From positions 862,670-926,669 of the forward strand of contig NZ_MQWC01000004.1 in assembly GCF_002954405.1 (NCBI RefSeq): a stretch of 64,000 bases of DNA, written 5' to 3'. Shown here in pieces: positions 38,486 through 39,651 of the stretch (its first letter is position 1; every line of letters starts with the position of its first letter). This DNA is from Salinibacter sp. 10B (lineage in GTDB: Bacteria > Bacteroidota > Rhodothermia > Rhodothermales > Salinibacteraceae). Under the pieces are notes generated by a model that was not told the DNA's origin, searched no databases, and worked only from the letters and a program-made list of their open reading frames with translations. A program made the position numbers and the translations under genes.

Positions 38486-38920
38486 TCACTCCTTCGGCCA
38501 GGCATTCTCCTGGGGCAGATCGGCGTCGGGGGGCTGCAGGACAAGCTCGTCGGGTAGGTCGTTGACCTGATCGTCGGGATTGACGACAGACACGAGGGGC
38601 ATGGCGAGGGCGGTGAAGAACTTGCCCATCGCCGCGATGAGAAACTCCTGTTGGAGCTCGATCATGTCCTCTTCCAAGCGCCCGTCGTCGCGGACGTGCC
38701 CCTCGATGTCGAGATAAAACACGCGGGGCCAGTCCGGAAATTCCTCCTGTGCCTCCGACAACAACTCGAAGACGTCGTGGGCCGCCGTCTCAAAATCGTC
38801 TCCCTCCTCCACGATGTGGTACAGGGACACGGTGTTGTCGAAGTTCATGTGGATGCCGGGCGCATTCGGCTTGTCGTACTCCGGAATAAATTCCGGGGGG
38901 TCTTCGCTCGGGGGACTCAT
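38486..38920 (-). CDS. acidic hypothetical protein
   Basis: A 144-residue, very acidic soluble protein with no signal peptide. It opens MSPPSEDPPEFIPEYDKPN, has HMNFDNTVSLYHIVEEGDD, a helical segment FETAAHDVFELLSEAQEEF, and RVFYLDIEGHVRDDG. I recognise no family. It lies 83 bases downstream of the chorismate mutase on the same strand and could be in the same operon, under the same attenuator. The start at 38920 is the ATG before the regular sequence; the frame stays open upstream. Confidence 0.6.
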   Translation of the reverse strand: MSPPSEDPPEFIPEYDKPNAPGIHMNFDNTVSLYHIVEEGDDFETAAHDVFELLSEAQEEFPDWPRVFYLDIEGHVRDDGRLEEDMIELQQEFLIAAMGKFFTALAMPLVSVVNPDDQVNDLPDELVLQPPDADLPQENAWPKE

Positions 38921-39003: not shown

Positions 39004-39363
39004 TCATGCATGGTCGCACCCGTTGGAAGACGCCGCCCCGTTGGAGGGAGAGGGCATCCGTTTCTCCGCCTCCGAATGCTCGCGCTGCTCCCGCTGGCGC
39101 CGTACCGAATGAGAAAGGATCTTCTCGTAGAGTCGACGGACGAGCTGGGGCGAAAGGTCATTTTCTTCAGCAATCGCCGCCACGTGGTCGAGGAGTTCGG
39201 CCTCTCGATCCGGATCCTTCACGTTATCCCCGTCTTCGGCTTTCATCTCGCAAATCTCATCGACGACCGCATAGCGTTCGGCCAGTAGCTCAACGAAGCG
39301 ACGGTCAATCTTGTCGATGCGATCTCGCGCCTCTTCGATCGGGGAGGAAGTCGTAGTGGACAT
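39004..39363 (-). CDS. chorismate mutase, AroQ class
   Basis: A 119-residue helical chorismate mutase, which converts chorismate to prephenate, the branch point to Phe and Tyr. The AroQ pattern is visible: IEEARDRIDKIDRRFVELLAERYAVVDEIC with the substrate-binding Arg (R14) and the R-R-F-V-E-L-L-x-x-R motif, then KD-P-x-R-E, and LVRRLYEKILSHSVRRQ. It is monofunctional; a Ser/Asn-rich, acidic tail follows. A leader ORF rich in Phe/Tyr codons and a terminator lie just upstream, suggesting control by attenuation. A hypothetical gene follows. Confidence 0.9.
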   Translation of the reverse strand: MSTTTSSPIEEARDRIDKIDRRFVELLAERYAVVDEICEMKAEDGDNVKDPDREAELLDHVAAIAEENDLSPQLVRRLYEKILSHSVRRQREQREHSEAEKRMPSPSNGAASSNGCDHA

Positions 39364-39437: not shown

Positions 39438-39477
39438 CAAAAACCCGCCGGAGCCGAGAGGCATCGGGCCGGCGGGT
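39438..39477 (-). terminator. leader terminator of chorismate mutase
   Basis: On the minus strand a 9-bp stem (39469-39477 with 39443-39451), with an inner CCGA/TCGG helix, is followed by TTTTTG. It lies 33 bases after the leader peptide stop and 75 bases before the chorismate mutase start. The 5' arm (CGCCGGCC, 39467-39474) can alternatively pair with GGCCGGCG inside the leader ORF (39519-39526). Confidence 0.82.
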
Positions 39478-39510
39478 CGCAGAAACAAAAGCGTGAGTGC
39501 TGAACGCGTC

Positions 39511-39651
39511 CTACGTATCGCCGGCCGGGAGATAAAAATAAAAATACGCGTAGCCAAAATAGGAAAAGGCAAACGCGTACAGTCCCCCTACGATCTCGAT
39601 GGACTCATCGAGCAGAGACGGCGCGGCAGATGTAGGGGTGAGTGCGTTCAT
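39511..39651 (-). CDS. aromatic-rich leader peptide of attenuator
   Basis: A 46-codon ORF that begins ATG at 39651 and ends TAG at 39511. Residues 24-41 read LYAFAFSYFGYAYFYFYL: 11 of the 16 residues Y25-Y40 are aromatic, five Phe (all TTT) and six Tyr. The codons after it (PAGDT, then stop) contain GGCCGGCG, which is complementary to the 5' arm of the downstream terminator. Stalling at Phe/Tyr codons would leave this segment free to form an antiterminator, while complete translation would cover it. This fits a pheL-like attenuator controlling chorismate mutase. It is longer than enterobacterial pheL (15 codons), and a small membrane protein cannot be excluded. Confidence 0.72.
   Translation of the reverse strand: MNALTPTSAAPSLLDESIEIVGGLYAFAFSYFGYAYFYFYLPAGDT

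Follow-up and report, generated by a model that had tools for sequence, protein, structure and literature searches.

Salinibacter sp. 10B very probably controls its single chorismate mutase gene through a transcription attenuator in which the ribosome acts as the sensor of charged tRNA-Phe and tRNA-Tyr. We analysed a stretch of 64,000 nucleotides from this genome (the window, to which all coordinates refer), and assign this reading a probability of roughly 0.9. In the salt-loving Salinibacter group, a shortage of Phe or Tyr would probably stall the ribosome on a short leader and so switch the enzyme gene on.

We propose that the transcript would begin at the leader ATG or a few bases 5' of it, and that translation of the leader would proceed without a Shine-Dalgarno site. 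With ample Phe and Tyr, the ribosome would get to the final codons and the stop codon and mask the antiterminator arm in codons 42-46; with this arm masked, the downstream hairpin would end transcription. When Phe- or Tyr-tRNA is scarce, the ribosome would stall within codons 25-40 and the final codons would be left free. These would then pair with the emerging 5' arm of the terminator, so that no terminator forms and chorismate mutase is transcribed. Leader translation, stalling, termination and read-through are the steps that we infer.

The leader and its promoter

Read 5' to 3' on the minus strand, the locus consists of a promoter (39690-39662), a 46-codon open reading frame (39651-39511), a terminator (39477-39439) and the chorismate mutase gene (39363-39004). 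A simple promoter/terminator scanner listed neither the promoter nor the terminator of the leader region, and both were located by direct reading and comparison. The positions given for this locus in the first-pass annotation all proved correct on re-check; the promoter and a second hairpin at 39411-39365 had been missed in that reading.

The leader ORF translates as MNALTPTSAAPSLLDESIEIVGGLYAFAFSYFGYAYFYFYLPAGDT. It had been described as holding 11 Phe/Tyr codons within residues 25-40 (39532-39579), and this count stands, with five Phe codons (all TTT) and six Tyr codons (four TAT and two TAC). Such a density is far above chance expectation: the window has 966 ORFs of 16 aa or longer, of which the next densest has 7 Phe/Tyr per 16 residues, the maximum in 20 dinucleotide-shuffled 64-kb windows was 6 per 16, and with a local Phe/Tyr frequency of 0.052 the probability of at least 11 of 16 is ~3e-11 for one stretch. 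The leader is a small ORF rich in codons for the amino acids made by way of the gene that it would regulate, and the folding of the whole leader is more stable than that of shuffled versions (z = -3.4). The exclusive use of TTT for Phe in the control run (5 of 5) was set beside the neighbouring genes, where TTC is about three times commoner; it may make decoding slower or leave this stretch free of structure.

The promoter is made up of TTGACA (39690-39685), a 17-nt spacer and TACCGT (39667-39662), and ends 10 nt ahead of the leader ATG. The same layout, TTGACA or TTGATA followed after 17 or 18 nt by TANNNT and ending 9-10 nt before the leader ATG, was found at 17 of the 22 loci at which we identified such a leader (see below). 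The distance is 7 nt at L021 and L022, and 6 nt, with a weak -35 element, at L020 and L023; a search for this layout gave no match at the one remaining locus, L018. As predicted from sequence, the -10 element ends 6-10 nt before the ATG in 21/22 loci. Transcription normally starts ~6-8 nt past the -10 box, which therefore leaves no room for a ribosome-binding site before the leader ATG. The transcript start is expected 0 to ~6 nt from this ATG, and, judged from the promoter spacing, the leader is probably translated in leaderless fashion, without a Shine-Dalgarno site.

Terminator, antiterminator and folding model

The first-pass annotation had placed a terminator between the leader and chorismate mutase. 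This terminator consists of the hairpin ACCCGCCGGCCCGATGCCTCTCGGCTCCGGCGGGT (39477-39443, -23.8 kcal/mol) followed by TTTTGCG, its U-tract running to 39439, and it is conserved. Exact complementarity between the leader end and the terminator had also been noted, and it is indeed present: the core of the antiterminator, GGCCGGCG (39526-39519), pairs with CGCCGGCC (39474-39467). In the window an extension, CGTAG (39515-39511), pairs with 39478-39482, so that the 5' arm of the antiterminator spans the final leader codons (39511-39526) and its 3' arm (39467-39482) overlaps the 5' arm of the terminator. Since this pairing takes in both the leader end and the terminator arm, the two structures are predicted to be mutually exclusive, as had been claimed.

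The stem formed at each ribosome position was modelled in two ways. In equilibrium folding of the full leader in the window, the probability of the terminator was 0.92-0.96 with the ribosomal A-site at codons 24-29, 0.43 at codon 31 and 0.02-0.22 at codons 32-38; from codon 39 onward, and also without a ribosome, it was 0.98-0.99. A dependence on ribosome position was thereby seen in the window and in only part of the relatives; in many of them, the terminator wins over the antiterminator at any ribosome position. Full-leader equilibrium folding is a poor general test, and a nascent-transcript version was used instead, which asks whether the antiterminator is formed before the 3' arm of the terminator has been synthesised. 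Across the 22 loci, the mean best value for the antiterminator in this model was 0.75 when the ribosome was on the Phe/Tyr codons and 0.00 when it had reached the stop codon. The idea that stalling frees the leader segment and complete translation covers it agrees with this model. Because the equilibrium favours the terminator in many relatives, the switch would have to be kinetic, and it is best read as such in the model, like classical attenuators.

Conservation in related genomes

The relatives comprised 12 further members of the genus (Salinibacter/Salinivenus; Salinibacter belongs to Rhodothermota, Rhodothermales, Salinibacteraceae), five genomes of the same family (L015-L019) and four from other families of the order (L020-L023). 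A Phe/Tyr-rich leader was found 5' of the chorismate mutase gene in 22 genomes, namely 13 of the genus with our own included (the leader being present in 12/12 of the others searched), the five of the family and the four of other families. The ORF, its codon run, the alternative stems and the promoter spacing can, together with their conservation, be read from these sequences. The N-terminal half of the leader diverges and the aromatic run is kept, although just 5-6 aromatic codons are left in the leaders of L006 and L007. In nearly all members of the genus and the family the last aromatic codon lies 6-7 codons from the leader end. The leader ends ~125-160 nt upstream of chorismate mutase in the genus and in L015-L019, and 67-102 nt upstream in L020-L023.

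A terminator begins 22-35 nt past the leader stop in all 22 loci; it was called automatically in 21 of these and by hand in L004 (31 nt after the stop). Pairing between the leader end and the 5' arm of the terminator amounts to 6 to 11 bp in 22/22 loci and is weak at L023. Compensatory changes occur, for example, at L017, where CAGCCGATGGG pairs with CCCGTCGGCTC, and at L022, where GGCACCGGCGG pairs with CCGTCGGTGCC. When trimmed segments were permuted among loci, a leader end and its own terminator arm paired more strongly than permuted combinations, the observed value being reached by 240 of 100000 permutations for the 22 loci, 755 of 100000 for a subset of 12 loci and 279 of 100000 for 9 divergent loci. 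A swap test with long segments gave weak ranks because a GC motif is common to all loci, and covariation is only moderate since the arms are GC-rich and have this motif in common. In the first-pass annotation, conservation of the aromatic codons together with that of the alternative stems in relatives had been proposed as a check on the attenuator, and the two are kept across the 22 genomes.

The regulated gene

The gene behind the leader in the window (39004-39363, minus strand) encodes an AroQ-type chorismate mutase of 119 aa (Pfam CM_2, 8e-23). Chorismate mutase catalyses the branch step common to Phe and Tyr. The enzyme is the sole chorismate mutase found in the genome, and prephenate dehydratase is located elsewhere. 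Phe and Tyr are thus both made by way of this gene, in keeping with the mix of Phe and Tyr codons in the leader. Directly 3' of it lies a small protein gene (38486-38920, minus strand) that is probably in the same transcript and has no match in Pfam or NCBIfam.

Among the 22 loci, the leader precedes chorismate mutase alone in the genus and in L015, a fusion of chorismate mutase with DAHP synthase in L016, L017 and L019, a fusion with prephenate dehydratase in L018, and a chorismate mutase-prephenate dehydratase-DAHP synthase protein in L020-L023. The DAHP synthase and prephenate dehydratase parts of the two double fusions were confirmed by Pfam profile, and the triple fusion was read from the sequence. 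As far as sequence can tell, the enzymes behind the leader, alone or fused, match the leader codons. In one genome of the genus (G009; L004, L145, G009:C19:61568-62746), DAHP synthase sequence directly follows chorismate mutase as two matches in two frames, which reflects either an assembly frameshift or a decaying gene. No such leader was found at the chorismate mutase paralog that adjoins tsaD in many other Rhodothermales genomes, and searches in front of the separate prephenate dehydratase and of DAHP synthase II likewise revealed none.

Leaders before other amino acid biosynthesis genes

A leader with 2-5 Trp codons precedes trpE in 12/12 genus loci examined (L062-L073), ~190-300 nt upstream of the match to the trpE domain; that of our own genome (L069) reads MKAATLNTSQNWWLWWPSSRVWSPCCV. 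At these loci the ATG follows a -10 box at a distance of 8-10 nt, a terminator is present, and the leader end pairs with the terminator typically as CGGGTC..GAGCC with GGCTC..GACCCG, the leader of L063 being a shorter variant with a different pairing. By its sequence the trpE leader appears to be a parallel Trp attenuator, laid out like the Phe/Tyr leader.

Most of the ilvB loci (L074-L083, with L076 in our own genome) have a leader rich in Leu, Ile and Val, located ~340-560 nt 5' of the match to the ilvB domain; its last residues form runs like LVLLLILAILPG or RVLLLIAILAD. The alternative pairings 1:2, 2:3 and 3:4 have energies of -19.7, -26.0 and -12.2 kcal/mol, and no U-tract follows the last hairpin. 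Genes of the leuA type come next, within ~6-13 kb. A His leader was looked for at hisG in the genus and none was evident.

Alternative explanations

We considered whether a second, translational layer is added to the attenuator. In this proposal, the hairpin at 39411-39365 would hide the ribosome-binding site of chorismate mutase in read-through transcripts, so that termination and translation would both be controlled, and the freed 3' arm of the terminator (CCGGCGGG) would possibly compete for the same CCGCC. In the window, GGCGGA (39411-39406) pairs with TCCGCC (39370-39365), and TCTCCA (39401-39396) with TGGAGA (39377-39372), which contains the Shine-Dalgarno-like GGAGA; this motif lies inside the hairpin in several loci. 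Most of the genus retains the hairpin, its two sides having changed together (GGCGGA/TCCGCC, GGTGGGTC/GACCCACC and GGGGGGC/GCCCCCC). However, permutation support is moderate, with 1151 of 100000 for 12 genus loci, 223 for 17 loci and 2920 for the 9 less related loci, and local folding at several loci prefers other structures. A translational role of this hairpin is therefore a guess from the sequence, which we regard as possible and rather doubtful.

A different view of the ORF is that it encodes a functional small hydrophobic protein, perhaps of the membrane, to which the terminator is unrelated. Conservation of the ORF and the hydrophobic character of its C-terminal half would suit such a protein, but the peptide diverges freely outside the aromatic run and varies from 27 to 52 residues in length. 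The end of the ORF is, moreover, tied in sequence to the terminator arm, and versions with Trp and branched-chain codons precede trpE and ilvB. Taken together, these observations make a small protein improbable. It is less probable still that a T-box or a metabolite riboswitch acts on the terminator, with the ORF being incidental. A terminator located 5' of the coding sequence of a biosynthetic gene would suit such an element, but there is hardly any RNA ahead of the leader ATG to form an aptamer, and what is conserved is the run of codons. A scan against Rfam at gathering score returned only tRNAs in the window and matched no amino-acid leader family; with E values up to 10, nothing relevant was found in the leader, the T-box model was not matched, and the sole hit was one chance match below threshold. 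Chance, meaning the terminator of an upstream transcript beside an ORF made aromatic-rich by an accident of base composition, might be suggested by the intergenic position and the GC-rich repeats, but it is refuted by the conservation in 22 genomes, with the shuffle controls also against it, and can be set aside.

Discussion

The probable Phe/Tyr attenuator would extend classical attenuation to Rhodothermota, backed by comparative evidence, and predicts a tight coupling of transcription to translation in this group. We tentatively, and at somewhat less than even odds, see in our data a broader pattern: Rhodothermota may make general use of attenuators with leaderless leader peptides (for Phe/Tyr, Trp and Ile/Leu/Val), which would require transcription to be closely coupled to translation, in a group of phyla where it is unusual to use a Shine-Dalgarno site; the Phe/Tyr element may combine with the hairpin over the ribosome-binding site into dual transcriptional and translational control; and this element may have been kept with the chorismate mutase domain through its fusion with, or release from, DAHP synthase and prephenate dehydratase. 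The same control element stands before four different arrangements of aromatic pathway genes, so one can now ask how a regulator is retained when the genes behind it fuse and split. The Phe/Tyr, Trp and branched-chain leaders also offer a test bed for leaderless translation as a sensor in attenuation outside Actinobacteria.

Some candidates in Bacteroidetes/Chlorobi were reportedly mentioned by Vitreschak et al. (2004). Our search of the accessible literature, which takes in only part of the subscription papers, returned no description of a Phe/Tyr leader element in Rhodothermota. The statement in the first-pass annotation that no case had been described in this phylum consequently holds for the searchable literature, with the caveat that a flavobacterium has been suggested to use leader-peptide attenuation (PMC9723704). 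This organism, Flavobacterium psychrophilum, belongs to the same wider group of phyla and would have leader peptides before amino-acid biosynthesis operons; the transcriptome study reports such attenuation only as strong clues, and the relevant passage describes no leader sequence (PMC9723704). Long 5' UTRs of B. thetaiotaomicron contain short ORFs that resemble leader peptides (PMC7366714). According to Naville and Gautheret (2010), leader-peptide systems were, before their case in Firmicutes, known only in Proteobacteria and Actinobacteria (PMC2965389).

The mixed Phe/Tyr run suits an enzyme at a shared branch point, in contrast to the Phe-only leader of E. coli pheA. The latter, pheL, is short and has a Shine-Dalgarno site, whereas the Salinibacter leader has 46 codons for Phe and Tyr alike, would be translated without such a site, and precedes a stand-alone chorismate mutase. 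Both systems share a leader with aromatic codons, an antiterminator and a terminator before a chorismate mutase gene, which in E. coli encodes chorismate mutase-prephenate dehydratase; the pheL-pheA (and pheST) attenuator is regulated by Phe-charged tRNA (PMC11802643). An aromatic leader is also found in C. glutamicum, where aroR, with Phe-Tyr-Phe, precedes the DAHP synthase gene aroF (Neshat et al. 2014; PMC11802643, PMC4046766). Of the two amino acids, Phe alone is reported to matter for aroR (PMC11802643). That system belongs to another phylum and has 3 aromatic codons against 11 in the Salinibacter leader; its target enzyme recurs in the Rhodothermota loci in which the leader precedes a chorismate mutase-DAHP synthase fusion (L016, L017 and L019). 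The putative leaderless start resembles the leader peptides of Streptomyces lividans, whose transcripts begin at the start codon and have no ribosome-binding site (PMC8079986), and leaderless leader peptides of C. glutamicum (Morbach 2000, as cited in PMC4046766); trpL, ilvL and leuL are the examples from these two species. The actinobacterial starts were mapped by RNA-seq, whereas the Salinibacter start is deduced from promoter spacing. Altogether, the classical design is already known, as are leaderless and Phe-Tyr leaders in Actinobacteria; new, as far as the literature could be searched, is a probable and conserved Phe/Tyr attenuator in a phylum for which we found no published example.
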